IMG/VR virus record: IMGVR_UViG_3300023198_000904
Coordinates: 1-22,005 of that record
Reading direction: 5' to 3' (one strand)
Source: a virus
DNA: 22,005 bases
Shown here in pieces: positions 2,749 to 18,648 of the stretch. The position numbers and the translations under genes are program-made. Positions within the stretch are counted from its first letter, which is position 1. Every line of letters starts with the position of its first letter. The notes under the pieces are model-generated. The model ran no database searches, was not told the DNA's origin, and was given only the letters and a program-made list of their open reading frames with translations.

Positions 2749-3231
2749 TTACTTAATTCTTCTACCTTTATTACCTCGAGTTCTTCCTCCTCGATTACTA
2801 CCAGGTCGTTCACCTGTAGCACTAACTCTACCAATAAATCTGTTATTTACAATCCCTATACCAGAGTTTCTTCTTCTTCTGGAAGCTTTTAACTTAGCTG
2901 CAGTATTTACTACAGGGGGGATTACAGGTTCAATTGCAGGGTTAGGTATTACACCCGGTCTTTTCTTTATTATACCCAATTCAGGTATTGCAGAAGTACG
3001 TGGTGTAAGCCTAGCTCTACGCGTGCCTACACTTTTATCTATGTTAGCAGCATAAGACTTACCTTCATAGTCAAAAGGATCCTCTCCTTGAAATTCTGCT
3101 AAACGCAGTCTTCTCTGAAAAGGTGTATCCTGTCCTTCTAATCTTCTTTGCCTACCTAAGTCAGCGCGGTTTTTAAATACTCTCCCTGGTTTTTTAGGGT
3201 CTTTAGTTTTCTTTGGGTCTGTTCGGGCCAT
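2749..3231 (-). CDS. Arg/Lys-rich small protein of the head module
   Basis: This 160-residue, strongly basic protein starts MARTDPKKTKDPKKPGRVFK and ends in a Gly/Arg-rich tail (GGRTRGNKGRRIK). A Pro/Ile-rich stretch (GVIPNPAIEPVIPPVV) lies near residues 93-108. No catalytic motif, membrane segment or clear domain is visible. Its start shares one base with the portal stop, so the two are translationally coupled. Position between portal and scaffold suggests a virion-associated or DNA-binding head protein, possibly injected or neutralising packaged DNA; this is inference. The adjacent strongly acidic scaffold-like protein raises the possibility that the two interact by charge. I do not recognise the family. 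Confidence 0.6.
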   Translation of the reverse strand: MARTDPKKTKDPKKPGRVFKNRADLGRQRRLEGQDTPFQRRLRLAEFQGEDPFDYEGKSYAANIDKSVGTRRARLTPRTSAIPELGIIKKRPGVIPNPAIEPVIPPVVNTAAKLKASRRRRNSGIGIVNNRFIGRVSATGERPGSNRGGRTRGNKGRRIK

Positions 3232-5711
3232 TATTTCTTTGGTTTAGATTTTTCGCCAACTACTTTGTTTTTCATGGCGGTTTTATTATTGTCTTTAGAT
3301 ATTCGTTCTTTAGACTTGATGTCCTTCTCTTTAATATCTAATTCTCTAGATTTTAACTTAGCATCTGATTTGTCTTTCGATACCTGAGCACCAAGTTTGT
3401 TTTGTTCTATGAATTGGTTAAATGAGTCTCGTCCTTGTTCTAGATGTATTTTACTGTATTCTAATACATCCGGAACTTGATTATCATTGATGTCAGTATC
3501 CTGAGAAAAGCCCATAGCCTTAACAGTTTCTACTTTAAGCTTGTTCTCTCGATCAAGTTGCTTATCCATCAAGTTATCTTCATGCTGCTCTCTTTCCCAG
3601 GCTTCAGTTTTATCTGCAGCTGCTTGCTCAACTTTCTGAGCTTGCTCAACAGCTGCTATTTGTTTCTGTTCAAATTCACTTTCAGAACTAACAATTTCAC
3701 CTTCGATCTCAGAGATACTTTCTGACTTGTAAATCTTAATAAGATCAGACAAATTAACTTTTTCTTGTTGTAATGCAATCTGTGCAAGACCCTCAAGCTT
3801 CTGCTTAATCCTAGCGTCCTTGATACTATCAGTTACAAACACGTTGTAATTAGTATCATCAAACTCAGTACCATCTACTTCTAGAATAGCAGTTTCGATA
3901 TCGTTTACAATGTATTGGAGTTTCTTATTTCCATAAGATGATTGCCTAAATGTTTGTATGTAGGCTGTAAGTACTTTTTGTTTAACCTGATTGTGGTAGA
4001 AGAACCAAGGTTCTGTAATACTAGTAGATTGTTGTACTGCTCTTTCTATTCCACTTGCAGTTTCTGAGGCTTTAACATCTGCCTCACGTTGACGAGAGAT
4101 ACCGGTAATTCTATCTACCTGGGCCTCCAATTCGCGCAACACTTCTAAGTATTGTCCTACTATTTGAGATAAGGATAAGTCAACACCTTTCATCTCATTC
4201 ATTGCTTGAGTTACACTATTAGGATCACCTTTCTTACCTTCTTCCATAGAATTCACCCAGATGATACCGGTGTTGTCAAAATGGTAAATCCATTCATCCA
4301 TGTCCATCCCCATGGACTTAGGCATCTTAGCGTAATCCATTATGAGTTTTCTACCCTTAGCTTTAGCTAGTTCCTGTTCAAGTCTCCACCATACAGTCAT
4401 ATAAGTGTACTGATGTGGCTTTACTAGGTCTATTAACGAAGTAGCCATAGAGTTTACTGAGTTGAACACATATCCAATATAAGGGAGACTACACTCTCCA
4501 GGATTGTTCATATCCCTGAATTGGTTGTGTAGAGGTCTAACATTTACATAAATGTCATCACCAATTCTAGTACCTTCCCAGACTTCATTGATCCACTGCC
4601 ACCTTAAAGTACCACCAGCATCTTTGATATCCTGGGACATTTCAAAATCTTCTGAAACAATAGTTTCTGCTTCTTTACCTGAACGAGGATCCATATAGGT
4701 TAGGAAACCTACCTTTCTCAAACTCTTCCATACTACGTTAGCTACATATACATGTGAACTGGAACCAGCAGAGGATTGCCCCTGCATTGTATTTGTATTA
4801 ATGACATTACCTTGTATCTCACTCTCTGCATATGCAAAGCCTGGGTAATACTGCATCTTATTACTTGGATATCCTATTTCACCTTTATCAAGGCGATCTA
4901 TCTCAGCATCTGTTAATCCGTCACTGTAAAGGTCTATAACTTCTCCTATAGAGAGCCAGCGTTCTTCTTTGGCCCACTGGGCATCTTCTATAGAGCGTAG
5001 TTCAATTGTCTTGTCGTAATCAAAGTTTAATGGGTTTACTACACGTACCTTTGGTTCATTATTATGGGTACCAACATAAAATACCTCTTCTGAGGATATC
5101 AAGGCGTGTTCCCATCCAGCGTTAAACTTACGTTTAAGCTCTTCAGCTTGTACTCCATATTCGAGGATCTGATTAGCAGTTACCTCTCTAGGATGTATGT
5201 ACTGGGACTTAAAATATTTTTGTATTGAATCCAGGGGCTGAGGTGGCTCTTGTCCTTCCTCTTGTGGTCCTTGATCCTGTACCATTCTAGCTTGTAAATG
5301 TTCTAAAATAGCTTTTCTCTTTTCATCCTGTTTCTGAGAAACTACTTCTCCGCTAGTAGCTCGAACCCTGAAAGAGAAAGGTCTCTGCATTTCCTCTCCT
5401 TTTAACAACTCTATCTTGGGACGGATGATGTTATAATTCTTCATCTTCGTGGCAACCTTACTATAATTGCCTTTTAGACCCATAGGGTTTAGAACGTAAT
5501 TAAAGTCCTTTTCATTAAAGATCGAATTATAAAGGTTATAGTTGATTTGCTTATTAAACTTACTAGACCTGTTATTTTGCAAGGTTTGAGAAGATAAGTT
5601 AATAATAGCATCTACAGAGTTCTTTTGCCATTTCTCACCTTTACGTGTACGCGAGATTTTCTGAGGTGGAAGGCTGTAATTGTACGGAGTATCTTTTACT
5701 GGATATGACAT
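3231..5711 (-). CDS. Portal protein
   Basis: This 826-residue protein follows the large terminase by 13 bases. Length and sequence style (N-terminal YNSIFNEKDFNYVLNPMGLK, then RPKIELLKGEEMQRPFSFRV) fit the crAss-like portal, the dodecameric ring at the capsid vertex through which DNA enters and leaves. The long mixed alpha/beta central region (about residues 90-670) carries typical wing and stem features, including LVKPHQYTYMTVWWRLEQEL and DRITGISRQREADVKASETA. From about residue 676 the C-terminus is a charged coiled coil rich in Gln, Glu and Lys. It is interrupted near 738-751 by DTDINDNQVPDVLE, which resembles calcium-binding DxDxDGxxD repeats. No signal or membrane segment is present. The start has no strong ribosome site. 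Confidence 0.87.
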   Translation of the reverse strand: MSYPVKDTPYNYSLPPQKISRTRKGEKWQKNSVDAIINLSSQTLQNNRSSKFNKQINYNLYNSIFNEKDFNYVLNPMGLKGNYSKVATKMKNYNIIRPKIELLKGEEMQRPFSFRVRATSGEVVSQKQDEKRKAILEHLQARMVQDQGPQEEGQEPPQPLDSIQKYFKSQYIHPREVTANQILEYGVQAEELKRKFNAGWEHALISSEEVFYVGTHNNEPKVRVVNPLNFDYDKTIELRSIEDAQWAKEERWLSIGEVIDLYSDGLTDAEIDRLDKGEIGYPSNKMQYYPGFAYAESEIQGNVINTNTMQGQSSAGSSSHVYVANVVWKSLRKVGFLTYMDPRSGKEAETIVSEDFEMSQDIKDAGGTLRWQWINEVWEGTRIGDDIYVNVRPLHNQFRDMNNPGECSLPYIGYVFNSVNSMATSLIDLVKPHQYTYMTVWWRLEQELAKAKGRKLIMDYAKMPKSMGMDMDEWIYHFDNTGIIWVNSMEEGKKGDPNSVTQAMNEMKGVDLSLSQIVGQYLEVLRELEAQVDRITGISRQREADVKASETASGIERAVQQSTSITEPWFFYHNQVKQKVLTAYIQTFRQSSYGNKKLQYIVNDIETAILEVDGTEFDDTNYNVFVTDSIKDARIKQKLEGLAQIALQQEKVNLSDLIKIYKSESISEIEGEIVSSESEFEQKQIAAVEQAQKVEQAAADKTEAWEREQHEDNLMDKQLDRENKLKVETVKAMGFSQDTDINDNQVPDVLEYSKIHLEQGRDSFNQFIEQNKLGAQVSKDKSDAKLKSRELDIKEKDIKSKERISKDNNKTAMKNKVVGEKSKPKK

Positions 5712-5724
5712 TTAGTTATGTTTA

Positions 5725-7926
5725 TTATTGGAAAAATCCCCTTTCAAAGTAAGGGTCTCGTTCTATTTCTGTTTTCTCTTCGATGGCTACATTATACATC
5801 TGTTCTCTTTGCGCTACTGCGAGCATTAAAGCTATGATTCTATCATAGTTACCTACATCATTATATGAGATGAGCTCCTTAACAATAGGTTTAGAGTAGA
5901 TGAAGTGTAGCTGCATCTTCCCTTCTCCAACGTTCTCTTGTAGCCAATCCCTTAGGAAAACTTCGAGCTCAGCCTTAGGGCCTTTGCTCTTACCGTCTTT
6001 CCCAACAGTCTTATGCATGTTCTGTCCATACACTCTACTGACTTTAGAAGACTGGTTGGCCTTAAGGACTGTAGGGGTATAGGCTAGCAAAGATAGTGAA
6101 TGTTTTTGTTCAAAGTAAGTCTTAATACCAATTTTTTCATTTTCATACAAACAAAGGGCTCCATAGTATATAAGAAGTCTCCTGGCTTGCTCGTAGTAAG
6201 TCTTAGCAGATTCGGGCCTGGCTGTATACTCAGCAACGATTTTATCGTGATTACCGGAACCTATCGTAGCTCTTCTTATTAAGATAAGAGATCCTAAAGA
6301 AGAGCTGTTCACAGCTTCATCTAAATCGTAAGGGTCATTACCTGCAATGTACCATCCATACTGTGAGTTCTCTGCTGGGTGTTCCCAGATCTGTATTGCT
6401 CCTGTAGCGTCTGCACCCTTCTTGACAGGGTAGTCGCAAGGGATAGGATCCGTTTTCTTTAAGTAAGGCTTAAATTTAAACCTATCTTCTCCAGCCTCTA
6501 AGTCTACAACCATCTCACCAGCCTGTCCTATGACGTCTCCATCAGTGGAAGTTTCCAACCAGGCTAGATGATCTATGAGTTCTCCTATTGGGAAGATATT
6601 ACCAGTTGTAAGTAAGAATGCTTCACTAGGGACAATAGGACGTTGTTGGAGTTCATCATTGTGTGCTTGCTTGTCCTTACCTTGGGCTGCCTTATCCCTG
6701 GCCTTTTCTAAGAATTTAACAGCTGGCTCTCGTACTGTGTTACCTTTCTCATCCTTGTACTGGTTGAGTGTCTTCCAGGCAGGCATGAACATTCCTATCT
6801 TAAAAGGACTATTCTCGTATTCATCAGTAAAGGCTATGCAATCATATTTTTCTGGGTTGTAGAACACTTCCTTAGCAGCCTCCGTAGCACCACCAACCAT
6901 GTCACCACCTGTACCAGACATCCAGATAGAACCAAACTTAACAGCACCATCGGCTGTAGCTTCCTTCATCTGACCTAAGGCTTCTATTAGATTATCAAAG
7001 AAACCTATCTCCTCAAAGCAAGACCATCCCGGTCTGGTACCATTACCCGCATAAGGGTTATCCTTAAATGATCTGTGTTGTATCTTAGAACCAGAACCCT
7101 TTCGCTCCCAGTTGCCACCAGTCTTTACATCAACCATGGCTTCTACGAACTTACCTGAAGTCCAGGATCCAGAGAAGGCTTTAGATAAAGGAGAGGGGTG
7201 ACTCTTTCCTGCATACGTTAAATGCCCTCTTAGGTTGTTTAAACCAAGGCGTACTTTATGTAATAAGGTGTTGGAGTAGAAACTGTCAATCGCCCCTACT
7301 AAGGTTTCAGAAGTAAAAGGCTCTTCAGATTCTTTACCGTCTACGTATTCTTTATAATTCGTAGCCCCATCCATAAGGAAATTGTGAGCTACTGTAACAC
7401 TCATCCAGAAAGATTTACCACCACCACGAGCCTCAATGTCAATAACATTCATGGCCTCGTTCTCAAAGAGAGGATCTCCTAGATCACTGGTGTGGGTTTT
7501 AAATAAATACTCCCGGGCATCAACAAATCGTTTTAATGTCTTACCATCCTCTTTATAACAAGAAGGAGGCAGAACATTCCAGTCTCCCTCTTGATAATCT
7601 ATTCCTGCTCCTCTATGACACGTCACATCTGGATCATCCATAAACCCAGAAAATCCTCTAGCTTCAATCGTATAGATAGCACGTTCCCACTCCAAGTCTC
7701 TCAAGAAGGGTTGTCCTAAAGTCTTCACTTTAGCTGTGGCTGTCTTATTTAATTCAATGGTCCAATAGTTGATAAAGAAGTACAAGATACCAGGCATATA
7801 CCTGCCCTCTATCCAAATTCCATTAATGCATTTCTTTTTTTCTGCTTTCCAGAATTCTTTAAAGTCCCTTGAATAAGGGTTCATTGATGGGATTATTGTT
7901 TTCTTATACGACTTGTAACCTACCAT
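5725..7926 (-). CDS. terL: Terminase large subunit (packaging ATPase and nuclease)
   Basis: This 733-residue motor protein drives DNA into the prohead and cuts concatemers. The N-terminal ATPase has a Walker A-type loop (EARGGGKS, residues 165-172), a Walker B with catalytic acid (WSCFEEIGF, 301-309) and a coupling-type motif (SGTGG, 337-341). The C-terminal RNase H-like nuclease shows its acidic residues in order: D531 in GNDPYD, E595 in LYENEK and D694 in NYDRIIALMLA. All key residues are present, so it should be active. The start overlaps the preceding stop as TAATG. The next gene is the portal. Length agrees with crAss-like large terminases. Confidence 0.95.
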   Translation of the reverse strand: MVGYKSYKKTIIPSMNPYSRDFKEFWKAEKKKCINGIWIEGRYMPGILYFFINYWTIELNKTATAKVKTLGQPFLRDLEWERAIYTIEARGFSGFMDDPDVTCHRGAGIDYQEGDWNVLPPSCYKEDGKTLKRFVDAREYLFKTHTSDLGDPLFENEAMNVIDIEARGGGKSFWMSVTVAHNFLMDGATNYKEYVDGKESEEPFTSETLVGAIDSFYSNTLLHKVRLGLNNLRGHLTYAGKSHPSPLSKAFSGSWTSGKFVEAMVDVKTGGNWERKGSGSKIQHRSFKDNPYAGNGTRPGWSCFEEIGFFDNLIEALGQMKEATADGAVKFGSIWMSGTGGDMVGGATEAAKEVFYNPEKYDCIAFTDEYENSPFKIGMFMPAWKTLNQYKDEKGNTVREPAVKFLEKARDKAAQGKDKQAHNDELQQRPIVPSEAFLLTTGNIFPIGELIDHLAWLETSTDGDVIGQAGEMVVDLEAGEDRFKFKPYLKKTDPIPCDYPVKKGADATGAIQIWEHPAENSQYGWYIAGNDPYDLDEAVNSSSLGSLILIRRATIGSGNHDKIVAEYTARPESAKTYYEQARRLLIYYGALCLYENEKIGIKTYFEQKHSLSLLAYTPTVLKANQSSKVSRVYGQNMHKTVGKDGKSKGPKAELEVFLRDWLQENVGEGKMQLHFIYSKPIVKELISYNDVGNYDRIIALMLAVAQREQMYNVAIEEKTEIERDPYFERGFFQ

Positions 7927-8516
7927 TATATTTCTCCAGTGTCAGATAAACTTAGTGTTTGCCCACCCTTAACCTGCTGATCTTCATCTTCTTCAGCTAA
8001 GGACTTTTGGATCTGATGATACATATCGTAAATTGCTTTAGTATTTTTCATCATATCATCCAGGACTTTGGCATTCCCTGGTATTTTCATCATGGTTCCT
8101 TTCGCAGGATCCATTTCATAAGTATCCATTGTATAAGGAGTATCTCTAATAAAGATAGCCCTCTGTGTCAACTTTTCATTCATTTCCTCCAATGATTTCA
8201 ATGCAGGTGTAGTATGTAATGTGTGATACATTTCGAACAAAGGTAGTAATTTTTTCTCATTCTTATCATAGTAGTCAGGATCGCCCATGAAGTCTTTAGA
8301 TAATAACCCTATGCGCTCATGATACTGAACATTACGAAATACATTCTCTTTACCACTCTCCTGGATCTGGGCTACGTACCACATGATCTTTGAAGAGGTT
8401 ATTTTGTTTCTGCTCTTATCAGAACTCCAGAGACCCTTAAAGGGTTGAATGTTTTTGAACTGTGGGTTTACCACCCAAAAGCTATCGTCTGTGTTAAAGG
8501 ATTTCGTTAAACTCAT
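7926..8516 (-). CDS. Protein of unknown fold just before terL; candidate small terminase
   Basis: This 196-residue mostly helical soluble protein has an N-terminal aromatic-rich part (SFWVVNPQFKNIQPFKGLW) and a C-terminal helical region ending in an acidic patch (AEEDEDQQ). Its stop shares a base with the terL start (TAATG), so the two are coupled, and it overlaps the HU/IHF-like gene by 23 bases. In many tailed phages this slot holds the small terminase, which recognises the packaging site. No recognisable helix-turn-helix is visible, so the role is inferred from synteny only; it could be another conserved packaging-module protein. Confidence 0.45.
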   Translation of the reverse strand: MSLTKSFNTDDSFWVVNPQFKNIQPFKGLWSSDKSRNKITSSKIMWYVAQIQESGKENVFRNVQYHERIGLLSKDFMGDPDYYDKNEKKLLPLFEMYHTLHTTPALKSLEEMNEKLTQRAIFIRDTPYTMDTYEMDPAKGTMMKIPGNAKVLDDMMKNTKAIYDMYHQIQKSLAEEDEDQQVKGGQTLSLSDTGEI

Positions 8517-8742
8517 CTGTTTTACTTTTAATAAATTCTTTTCTGTCCTCAGGGAGGTATTGCAGTCTTCCAGGTTTCACCTTAAAGACCCCAAAATACT
8601 GTAAGCGTACGTCGTTTAGATCTTGCTCTTGCATCGTTTTTGATACAAAGACAAATTGGGACTCAGCAATTGAACGTATCTCTCGTCTGCTAAGCCCCAT
8701 CTCTGTTGCAATTTCTTGGTATACTTTCTCTAGATTATCCAA
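8494..8742 (-). CDS. HU/IHF-like DNA-binding protein
   Basis: This 82-residue protein has the HU/IHF layout. An N-terminal helical part (EIATEMGLSRREIRSIAESQ, residues 10-29) corresponds to the dimerisation helices. It is followed by VRLQYFGVFKVKPGR (45-59), close to the family's 'V.L.gFG.F.v..r..R.GRN' signature, where the beta arms begin. The arm and C-terminal helix are short, so it is at the small end of the family. Such proteins bend DNA. Crassvirales genomes are known to encode IHF-like proteins near the packaging genes, which supports both the call and the phage assignment. It overlaps both neighbours. Whether it assists packaging, replication or transcription cannot be read from sequence. 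Confidence 0.7.
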   Translation of the reverse strand: MDNLEKVYQEIATEMGLSRREIRSIAESQFVFVSKTMQEQDLNDVRLQYFGVFKVKPGRLQYLPEDRKEFIKSKTDEFNEIL

Positions 8743-12908: not shown

Positions 12909-12924
12909 AATATATCCAGTTTTT
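12901..12924 (+). terminator. Intrinsic terminator overlapping the stop codon
   Basis: CTGGATA pairs perfectly with TATCCAG (7 bp, loop AAATA), followed by TTTTT at 12920-12924. The TAA stop of the gene at 12450 (12906-12908) lies inside the hairpin, so a ribosome finishing the gene would cover the stem. Confidence 0.8.
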
Positions 12925-12945
12925 ACATACGTGTATAATCTAGGT

Positions 12946-13122
12946 TGTCGCAAATTGTTACAATATGTGCGACATGAATGTCCAGTTAATTCTAGTAAAA
13001 ACTGGACACAGTGTCTATGTAACTGTCTATGTCTCCTATCCTTACAAGCCAACACCCCTGCGCTTATTTTACTCAGGGTGCGCTCACTTTTCTCAGAGGT
13101 TCTATTTAGGGTTTAGAACTCT
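12946..13122 (+). other. Gene-free block with four consecutive hairpins
   Basis: Hairpins in order are: TGTCGCA/TGCGACA (12946-12974, with inner ATTG/CAAT); TGTCCAGT/ACTGGACA (12979-13008); CACC(c)CTG/CAGGGTG (13053-13080, overlapping an alternative GCGC stem); and AGAG(g)TTCTA/TAGAACTCT (13095-13122). A 9-bp direct repeat TGTCTATGT occurs at 13012 and 13024. A T-rich tract (13131-13152) follows. This reads as a structured RNA or stacked processing signals between a terminator and the next gene. I see no convincing gene in 12909-13269. Confidence 0.55.
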
Positions 13123-13926: not shown

Positions 13927-14048
13927 TATCAACTAGCACTAGGTAAAAGGAGAACATCTATAGGCACTTTATAAAGAACTGCGACCCGGTAGAAGAGAAT
14001 GCCCTCTGCATTCTACCATTAAGGTATTAAGTCTCATGCTAGTTGATA
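13927..14048 (+). ncRNA. Structured RNA candidate with perfect 12-bp closing stem
   Basis: TATCAACTAGCA (13927-13938) is perfectly complementary to TGCTAGTTGATA (14037-14048). Inside, GGTAGAA (13988-13994) pairs with TTCTACC (14011-14017), or alternatively GAATGC with GCATTC around CCTCT. A perfect 12-bp match at this spacing is unlikely by chance in a block this size. The 3' strand could also refold locally (GCTA/TAGC), giving a switch-like alternative. Confidence 0.5.
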
Positions 14049-17305: not shown

Positions 17306-17400
17306 AGAAGGAAGGTAAGATGATTAGGTCTCCATCTAGAGGAGTACACTCGCTGTTGGGCAGTGACCAATCGAGGCACAAGTACAGTGTCCTTCCTTCT
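17306..17400 (+). ncRNA. Structured RNA candidate, three-way junction closed by a perfect 10-bp stem
   Basis: AGAAGGAAGG (17306-17315) is perfectly complementary to CCTTCCTTCT (17391-17400), followed by TTT. Inside are two arms: CTCC/GGAG (17330-17344, loop ATCTAGA) and ACACT/AGTGT (17346-17350 with 17386-17390) containing TTGG/CCAA. The nested layout argues for a stable folded RNA. The end could terminate transcription. It precedes the gene at 17427. Confidence 0.55.
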
Positions 17401-17426: not shown

Positions 17427-17765
17427 ATGTTATTATTAGAATTAGATGCACAACCAATTACTATTCAAGCTGAGAGATTTAAAGTTATTATGGATAGTAA
17501 ACAAGTAAAAGTAGTTGATATAAATACTACTGAGGTAACAATAATTGAAGCTAAAGCTTTTAAAGTACCGGGTTCGCCTACTAAATTACCTTTTGAACTG
17601 TTACCAGAAATATTTGATAAAGCATTCTTGAAGATTCTTGCTGAAAAGAATAGATTAGGTCTTTCAAGAGACCAAATATCTGGTTCAGTAGCTAGTTGGG
17701 TTAGAAAAGGTCAATTAGATAATGAGAATGGTGTATACTCAAAGACTAAAGTTATATCTTTGTAA
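17427..17765 (+). CDS. Protein of unknown function directly before the tmRNA
   Basis: This 112-residue protein has an N-terminal beta region (LLELDAQPITIQAERFKVIM, then KVVDINTTEVTIIEAKAFKV). A helical part follows (LPFELLPEIFDKAFLKILAE), with a short C-terminal tail where GLSRDQISGSVASWVRKGQL looks like a weak helix-turn-helix. It ends 10 bases before the mature tmRNA. Its last codons contain the candidate tmRNA promoter box. Confidence 0.55.
   Translation: MLLLELDAQPITIQAERFKVIMDSKQVKVVDINTTEVTIIEAKAFKVPGSPTKLPFELLPEIFDKAFLKILAEKNRLGLSRDQISGSVASWVRKGQLDNENGVYSKTKVISL
17755..17762 (+). promoter_or_regulatory. Candidate -7 box (TATCTTTG) for the tmRNA
   Basis: TATCTTTG matches TAnnTTTG exactly and ends 13 bases before the tmRNA 5' end (17776), leaving a short leader for RNase P to remove. 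It lies within the last codons of the preceding gene. The -33 region has no clear TTG. Confidence 0.4.
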
Positions 17766-17775
17766 ACTAAGATCT

Positions 17776-18192
17776 GGGGCTGACCGGATTTGACATAATG
17801 ATAGATGATAAATATGCAAGTATGTGATGATATGAGACACATTAAAAACGTATCAACCCAATAAATAACACAGAGAAATCTACTGTTATGTTTGTAAATC
17901 GTGAGGGCGACCTCATTGATACACGAACTGAGTTAAAGGTAGCTGCGTAGCTTATTAGAATTATAGCGCAGTTCTTGGAAACAGAATATCTTTAAATAGT
18001 ATTGCTATAAAACTGTGTCTAACCTCTTGAGGAGCATTGATGTCAGAGGATGCTCCATAGCAATTTTTAGTAAGTTTGTTAGAACTATAAACTAACTGGT
18101 GGTAGTTGACTTAAGTTGAGTCGACCCCTAAACTTGTATATCATATTTATTAGATACATTGATGGACGAGGGTTCGAATCCCTCCAGCTCCA
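17776..18192 (+). ncRNA. ssrA: Transfer-messenger RNA (tmRNA), phage-encoded
   Basis: The 5' end GGGGCTGACCGGATTTGACA is the classic tmRNA start. The 3' end has a perfect T-arm (GAGGG-TTCGAAT-CCCTC, 18168-18184), then CAGCTCC (18185-18191), which pairs with GGGGCTG (17776-17782) with the usual G-U third pair, then A. CCA is not encoded. Length is 417 nt. The tag frame ends at TAG 17948-17950, and its last codons read GAG TTA AAG GTA GCT GCG (ELKVAA). UAAAU at 17895-17899 matches the spacing of the element that sets the resume codon, which points to CGT at 17900 and a 16-residue tag REGDLIDTRTELKVAA; a GGC start would give 14. CTGCG/CGCAG (17943-17973) encloses the tag stop like helix 5. It rescues stalled ribosomes and marks their products for degradation. 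Confidence 0.92.
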
Positions 18193-18251
18193 CTCGTACG
18201 TCAGCTTTGTCTTTGTGCTGTGAATGACTTAGGTCTGTAAACAAAAATATT

Positions 18252-18345
18252 AATAAGTAGTGAGAGGTGAAATCCCTGTTGCATGAAGATTATGGTAAGT
18301 TCTTCCTAGCTCTGAATGACCTAACGTGAGGTGCCACTACTTATT
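18252..18345 (+). ncRNA. Structured RNA candidate with perfect 11-bp closing stem
   Basis: AATAAGTAGTG (18252-18262) is perfectly complementary to CACTACTTATT (18335-18345), enclosing 72 nt. Possible inner pairing is AGGT/ACCT near 18265 and 18319. It lies between the tmRNA and the next gene, with the same long-stem design as the elements at 13927 and 17306. Function unknown. Confidence 0.5.
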
Positions 18346-18381: not shown

Positions 18382-18648
18382 ATGAATTGGAGAAAAAGAG
18401 TCAAGGTTTGTAAACTACAAGTCTGGGCAGTACAACAATTTGAAAATCATCCAATAGGTGGTGTTCAAGTGAGAAACTCACAAGGTAATATAGAATTCTT
18501 AAACTCACATCCTAAAACAGATTGGGAGAAAGAATTATATTTAGCTGAAGTTGAGTTGTTAAAAGAAGTAGCAGCTATAAATGCAGCCGCTATTGTTAAG
18601 AGAGGTACTCGTATTCCATATAAAGCACCTCCAGCTAATAATGTATGA
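18382..18648 (+). CDS. Small protein of unknown function
   Basis: This 88-residue protein has a basic start (MNWRKRVKVCKLQVWAVQQF), then HPIGGVQVRNSQGNIEFLNS, then a helical Ala/Glu-rich part (AEVELLKEVAAINAAAIVKR). Probably a small soluble helical protein. The A-rich leader (CCAAACAAA) is typical. Its end overlaps the next gene by 8 bases. Confidence 0.55.
   Translation: MNWRKRVKVCKLQVWAVQQFENHPIGGVQVRNSQGNIEFLNSHPKTDWEKELYLAEVELLKEVAAINAAAIVKRGTRIPYKAPPANNV

Follow-up and report, generated by a model that had tools for sequence, protein, structure and literature searches.

Does the DNA at 17776-18192 of this phage fragment encode a working tmRNA and, if so, at which codon would translation resume and which tag would be added to the rescued peptide? 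tmRNA is the RNA by which bacteria free stuck ribosomes. When found in phages, tmRNAs usually receive one line in an annotation table, and are explained as spare copies of host genes. Phage tmRNAs are already known (PMC4131195; PMC9004378; PMC7474061) and have been reported in 402 of 18,146 phage genomes (PMC9004378); a search of the open-licence literature found no paper discussing tmRNAs of crAss-like phages. In what follows, the window is the whole stretch of DNA analysed (22,005 nucleotides).

The Carrier Phage and Its Sister

The source record is a 22-kb IMG/VR fragment. Judged by the matches of its terminase large subunit (TerL) and portal protein (Table 1), the carrier is a crAss-like phage (Crassvirales), and the closest named relative of its TerL is that of Cellulophaga phage phi14:2 (Crassvirales, Steigviridae; 33%). 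The crAss-like phages infect Bacteroidota. Near the terminase gene, positions 8494-8742 encode an 82-aa HU/IHF-like DNA-binding protein (PF00216, 22.6 bits, cut-off 22.4).

A sister contig, IMGVR_UViG_3300023198_000559 (80 kb), has a TerL that is 89% identical, and carries a tmRNA (locus L006; 82.8 bits with RF00023) flanked by the same two neighbour genes, with 81% nucleotide identity over a stretch that includes the upstream gene. The upstream 112-aa protein has no match in Pfam or PHROG, and a search with it as query found no relative; the downstream 88-aa protein has no match in Pfam. A search by TerL alignment added distant loci only, and exact patterns (the DNA of the tag, pseudoknot 1 and the sister tag) retrieved from IMG/VR either the sister alone or nothing.

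Table 1. Positions of the tmRNA gene, its parts and nearby or diagnostic genes, in coordinates of the window
Feature	Position	Strand	Evidence or remark
Portal protein, crAss-like type	3231..5711	-	phrog_6547, E 3.9e-127
Terminase large subunit, crAss-like type	5725..7926	-	phrog_6681, E 9.2e-104
Upstream neighbour, 112-aa protein	17427..17765	+	Ends 10 nt before the tmRNA; conserved in sister
One-piece tmRNA gene (ssrA)	17776..18192	+	RF00023, 79.3 bits; syntenic tmRNA in sister (L006)
Acceptor stem, 5′ strand GGGGCTG	17776..17782	+	Sequence; G3 of G3-U70 at 17778; one compensatory pair change against sister
Helix P2, 5′ strand TAAATATG CAAG	17809..17820	+	Two compensatory pair changes against sister
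Pseudoknot 1 (PK1)	17822..17855	+	Stem a 17822-17826/17838-17842, stem b 17828-17834/17849-17855; every letter the same in sister
Spacer, 11 nt, ACCCAATAAAT	17856..17866	+	U and A at -5 and -4 relative to the resume codon; same length in sister
Tag frame (probable), AAC 17867-17869, NTEKSTVMFVNREGDLIDTRTELKVAA, stop TAG 17948-17950	17867..17950	+	Frame position; Ala-Ala end; likeness to L125
PK2-like helix GCGCAGTT 17966-17973 / AACTGTGT 18011-18018	17966..18018	+	Single-sequence pairing only
PK3-like pseudoknot	18023..18056	+	CCTCT 18023-18027/AGAGG 18045-18049; GGAGCAT 18031-18037/ATGCTCC 18050-18056; single-sequence pairing, hairpin present in Rfam alignment too
PK4-region hairpin GTTGAC/GTCGAC	18105..18125	+	Against sister, two pairs with compensatory and two with one-sided changes
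Helix P2, 3′ strand	CTTG 18133-18136, CATATTTA 18142-18149	+	Pairs with 17809..17820
T-arm GAGGG-TTCGAAT-CCCTC	18168..18184	+	Sequence, perfect; one compensatory pair change against sister
Acceptor stem, 3′ strand CAGCTCC, and discriminator A	18185..18192	+	Sequence; U70 at 18189; sister comparison
Downstream neighbour, 88-aa protein	18382..18648	+	Conserved in sister; ortholog in L006

The tmRNA Gene and Its Structure

A complete phage tmRNA with both ends had been proposed in a first-pass annotation of the window, together with full acceptor complementarity and a perfect T-arm, and all of this was borne out. The Rfam model RF00023 matches 17776-18195 (+) over its whole span with 79.3 bits (E 1.3e-29), well above the gathering cut-off of 47 bits, the threshold beneath which that annotation would have abandoned its claim. 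The gene begins with G 17776 and ends with the discriminator A at 18192, which is followed by CTC, i.e., the 3′ CCA is not encoded. The order of its parts is that of a one-piece tmRNA, and neither the window nor the sister (G001) contains a match to RF04321, the model of permuted two-piece tmRNAs. When phage and plasmid records were searched with the nucleotide sequence of the tmRNA region, there were zero matches. ARAGORN does not call the tmRNA of the window, although it calls that of the sister; thus, standard phage annotation would miss the gene. At the level of sequence, 17776-18192 (+) is confirmed as a real and complete one-piece tmRNA.

The tRNA-like domain comprises the acceptor stem, the T-arm and a D-loop without an anticodon arm. 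All seven pairs of the acceptor stem are formed, including the G3-U70 wobble, which is the mark of an alanine tmRNA. Between the window and the sister there are six compensatory double changes (one in the acceptor stem, one in the T-stem, two in P2 and two in the PK4 region) and none of the pairs in the compared helices is disrupted; PK1 is identical. In the PK2 to PK4 part, compensatory changes occur only in the PK4-region hairpin, the PK2 and PK3 pairings being read from one sequence. This pattern of change indicates that the structure of the tmRNA is under selection. The idea that a structured stretch on the 3′ side belongs to the gene was discarded, as this stretch is located beyond the acceptor stem.

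The Resume Codon and the Tag

The first-pass annotation had placed the likely start of the tag at a CGT codon, giving about 14-16 residues ending in ELKVAA. The ending stands, as the frame closes with ELKVAA-TAG, and the start and the length are here revised. In both the window and the sister, PK1 and the resume codon are separated by a spacer of 11 nt that closes with AATAAAT; in E. coli the spacer is also 11 nt, and A86 at position -4 sets the frame (PMC2481249). Because of this shared spacer, and of the U at -5 and the A at -4, the resume codon is probably AAC 17867, an unusual one, and the tag probably the 27-aa peptide NTEKSTVMFVNREGDLIDTRTELKVAA. The resume offset of 92 falls within the span of correctly called Bacteroidota tmRNAs (90-103). 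With the frame preset 11 nt after PK1, an Ala-Ala-stop ending arose in 0.07% of dinucleotide shuffles, and a frame of at least 20 codons ending in hydrophobic-Ala-Ala in 0.01%. The codon CGT 17900-17902 lies in the same frame and is likewise preceded by U at -5 and A at -4 (GTAAAT), and in E. coli mutants the distance from PK1 was not critical (PMC2481249), so that resumption there, with the 16-aa tag REGDLIDTRTELKVAA, can be entertained. However, CGT lies 44 nt after PK1, at an offset of 125. The sister and E. coli have a spacer of 11 nt, and the offsets of related phages and hosts span 84-103, which renders this start unlikely.

In the sister, a frame that starts equally far from PK1 stays open and would encode GETKVISIAPVAQYEMRIAA (20 aa). 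The first-pass annotation had named a disrupted frame in relatives as evidence against the tag; the frame and its hydrophobic-Ala-Ala end are kept, whereas the body of the tag is not conserved. The tag of the window resembles AEKSDSYVDENGFLVFADEELKLAA, from the unrelated phage contig L125 (reached in 4 of 2000 shuffles; best of 22 tags), but this likeness is a hint only, because L125 has nothing else noted in common with the window.

Tags of Hosts and of Other Phages

How unusual is a tag of 27 aa? A tmRNA above the cut-off is present in 60 of 61 Bacteroidota genomes sampled throughout the phylum. Of 72 tags given by ARAGORN for Bacteroidota and near relatives, 70 have 9-10 aa (e.g. GENNYALAA, ANDYSYAMAA), the number of independent, unbiased host tags being somewhat below 70 because some genomes are repeats and some loci were chosen by tag pattern. 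Two loci (L226 and L243) were excluded from the host count as their starts look wrong; one of these two tags also has 10 aa. Long tags thus occur in none of the 70 host tags counted and in eight of the nine one-piece tmRNAs of related phages, and the claim that the tag of the window is unlike those of Bacteroidota holds.

A scan of IMG/VR for the tmRNA 3′ end gave at least 120 loci. ARAGORN called a tmRNA in 76 of the matches listed, some of these being one gene repeated, and tag frames were extended to the start proximal to PK1 where ARAGORN began far downstream. Among the matches listed, tags of at least 20 aa were found in 21 of 34 one-piece viral tmRNAs vs 3 of 39 permuted ones. For the crAss-like or TerL-related phages examined, eight of nine one-piece tags have 20-38 aa: window 27, sister 20, L043 33, L049 23, L078 30, L097 35, Fpv3 35 (the records of Fpv-type phages do not class them in Crassvirales), phi14:2 38 and, as the exception, cr106_1 only 8. 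On the tags read here, the extended tag is a general habit of the one-piece tmRNAs in these phages.

Two of these phages show what annotation can overlook. The tmRNA of phi14:2 (L152 1501-1970, corresponding to NC_021806.1 4031-4502) is not annotated in its GenBank record; by the PK1 rule its tag is GNDTDNTQLKANMTVVHNILNGSDALIGSSVQKLAMVA (38 aa, beginning with GNDTDNTQLKANM and ending in LAMVA), of which ARAGORN gives the last 11 aa only. The tmRNA of Flavobacterium phage Fpv3 (L150 1501-1915, minus strand, corresponding to NC_031904.1 82006-82420) is both unannotated and missed by ARAGORN; its tag is GNTNNSVVSLEDNAQVEANMNMAFSLIREDVAVAA, and a tmRNA was found in FPSV-S29 too. The tmRNA of cr106_1 is annotated in GenBank, with the short tag DNTYRVAA.

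Several of the long tags fall into families, for example that of Fpv3 with L075, L097 and L078; that of phi14:2 with L045 (42 aa); and STMTFEDAMAFVGADYAVAA, present in six viral contigs (L039, L046, L059, L072, L073, L115) among the matches listed. The last family has a strong third-position excess of substitutions, and over seven non-overlapping pairs of long tags from other phages the substitutions at codon positions 1, 2 and 3 number 45, 38 and 95. This excess at position 3 implies that selection acts on the peptide in some long-tag families of these other phages.

Viral tags that are otherwise unlike one another (L006, L043, L045, L128, L032) share the motif APVA close to their ends, in the contexts IAPVAQ, VAPVAT, APVAMAA and APVAV. 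The gut crAss-like phages cr124_1 and cr10_1 (L180, NC_055899.1; L181, NC_055875.1) have permuted tmRNAs (RF04321, 63.3 and 49.6 bits) with the tags GNVNNIVDYTNVA and GNNFVTDYTQLAVA, respectively; thus, both tmRNA architectures occur within Crassvirales. A permuted tmRNA is also present in phage contig L009 (5658-5875, minus strand; RF04321, 63 bits; tag GEQVELAMAA), which at its 5′ end shares GGATTTGACAT with the window.

Proposed Function and Alternatives

The RNA of this crAss-like phage is likely to function as a one-piece tmRNA. After processing by RNase P and addition of CCA, it would be charged with alanine by the alanyl-tRNA synthetase of the host and, with host SmpB and EF-Tu, would during infection enter ribosomes that have stalled on broken mRNA. 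Translation would resume at AAC 17867, the tag NTEKSTVMFVNREGDLIDTRTELKVAA would be added, and the tagged product would be degraded by a host AAA+ protease, so that ribosomes would be kept available to the phage while mRNA breaks down. SmpB was found in none of 13 tmRNA-bearing phage records and ClpP and Lon in none of 14, some of the records being fragments. Trans-translation would thus need these partners from the host, and their absence from those phage records, together with the hydrophobic-Ala-Ala end, makes trans-translation with host partners the likely role.

An Ala-Ala carboxyl end is what ClpX-type unfoldases read. The first-pass annotation had suggested that a tag of its own could let the phage redirect rescued peptides away from or towards particular host proteases, or compete with the host rescue system. 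Since the Ala-Ala terminus is retained in VAA, the tag is unlikely to let peptides escape degradation by the host, and the sequence lends no support to redirection away from host proteases; redirection towards a particular protease is possible, and putative competition of the phage tmRNA with the host system is possible too. By comparison with the Mycoplasma tag and Lon, the added length would most likely provide a longer grip for the protease or further contacts. Tentatively, the long tags of phage one-piece tmRNAs might be selected signals in which, beyond the Ala-Ala end, a lineage-specific segment engages a particular host protease, adaptor or other target and gives phage tagging during infection another outcome than host tagging, a reading that is possible rather than probable.

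Perhaps rescued peptides are directed by the extended tag to one particular protease or adaptor, so that phage and host tagging differ in outcome; this is compatible with a working tmRNA. Phage tags are two to four times longer than those of hosts, conserved tag families of other phages are under selection at the peptide level, and the extended Mycoplasma tag read by Lon (as cited in PMC3985003) is a precedent; on the other hand, the window tag retains the hydrophobic-Ala-Ala end used by ClpX, proteases of the ClpP and Lon families were not found in the phages, and tag bodies are unlike even between close relatives, which leaves rerouting less likely than not. Mycobacteriophage DS6A has a molecule consisting of the tRNA-like domain only, which was proposed to inhibit trans-translation (PMC4131195). 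The window gene might likewise be in decay or yield a decoy that captures SmpB and inhibits trans-translation of the host; in favour of this, ARAGORN misses the gene and the body of its tag is poorly conserved. The full-length structure, the compensatory changes, the identical PK1 and the intact tag frame with a proper end make such a decoy very unlikely. Lastly, tmRNA genes are known as integration sites (as cited in PMC11590407), so that the gene could be a host tmRNA fragment left as a copy of an att site. The gene is, however, complete, a second phage carries a diverged version of it in the same position, it has no nucleotide similarity to the phage or plasmid records searched, its tag is unlike every sampled host tag, and there is no integrase among ten genes scanned with Pfam. 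An integration-site remnant, the least probable of all these readings, was rejected on account of the complete gene, its synteny in the diverged sister and the distinct tag.

Returning to a working tmRNA, a mere spare copy of a host gene is argued against by the length of the tag (27 aa here, reaching 38-42 aa in phages related or similar to this one, vs 9-10 in hosts) and by tag families that are kept by selection. As phi14:2 and Fpv3 are cultured isolates with tmRNAs unannotated in their records, they offer a direct test. Since ARAGORN missed or shortened several of the genes, published counts of phage tmRNAs and of their tags are probably too low.

Other Structured Stretches in the Window

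Between the tmRNA and the next gene, 94 nt (18252-18345) are closed by a perfect 11-bp stem (AATAAGTAGTG/CACTACTTATT). In the sister, the corresponding stretch (L006 1382-1501, minus strand) is also closed by 11 bp, although the sequence of this stem is quite different. The stretch looks like a second structured RNA; it has no match in Rfam, and the folding z-scores are only -1.25 and -1.53. Perfect stems of 10-12 bp also close three further stretches (12915-13006, 13927-14048, 17306-17400), which measure 92-122 nt and lie outside the large open reading frames listed. Such inverted repeats number six in the window vs 2.45 expected from block shuffles. Possibly, the stem-closed stretches form a family of structured RNAs.

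Comparison With Known tmRNAs

The long-tagged phage tmRNA is ordinary in kind, and long tags are usual among the related phages examined. With the tmRNAs of Bacteroidota (RF00023), that of the window shares the tRNA-like domain, PK1, the spacer with UA and the hydrophobic-Ala-Ala end of the tag, and the sister tag opens with GET, as do host tags such as GETNYALAA. It differs in its tag of 27 aa rather than 9-10, roughly three times the length found in its likely hosts, in its probable resume codon (AAC, vs GGN, GCN or GAN) and in its RF00023 score (79 bits, below the 106-198 of the hosts). The one-piece tmRNAs of phi14:2 and Fpv3 are like that of the window, but the long tags that they encode are of a different family (..ANM..V...).

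In other phage lineages (Bxz1, Wildcat, phage G and Melnitz), ssrA is phage-encoded as it is here. In mycobacteriophage Wildcat, the tmRNA is strongly expressed and is the top lytic gene (PMC7474061). The tag of Bxz1 has 25 aa in the tag list of ARAGORN and that of Bacillus phage G has 13 aa, whereas the tmRNA of Methylophilales phage Melnitz is two-piece.

The built-in list of ARAGORN contains 598 unique tags, and the strings read from it measure 8-31 aa. Those of at least 18 aa are mostly from Mycoplasma, Chlamydia and Anaplasmataceae, and the list also holds tags of 25 aa from Bxz1-type phages and of 27 aa from the Bacteroidota endosymbiont Cardinium; thus, both a tag of 27 aa and a long phage tag have a precedent. 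The extended tags of Mycoplasma, Chlamydia and Anaplasmataceae have 20-31 aa, and the window tag likewise exceeds about 20 aa. Lon recognizes the extended Mycoplasma tag (Ge and Karzai 2009; Gur and Sauer 2008; both as cited in PMC3985003). Mycoplasma tags mostly end in FA or similar, i.e., without Ala-Ala, whereas the window tag ends in VAA and does not have an end of that kind. What is new, by comparison with these systems, is the regularity of long tags in these phages, their conserved families and their lengths of 33-42 aa.
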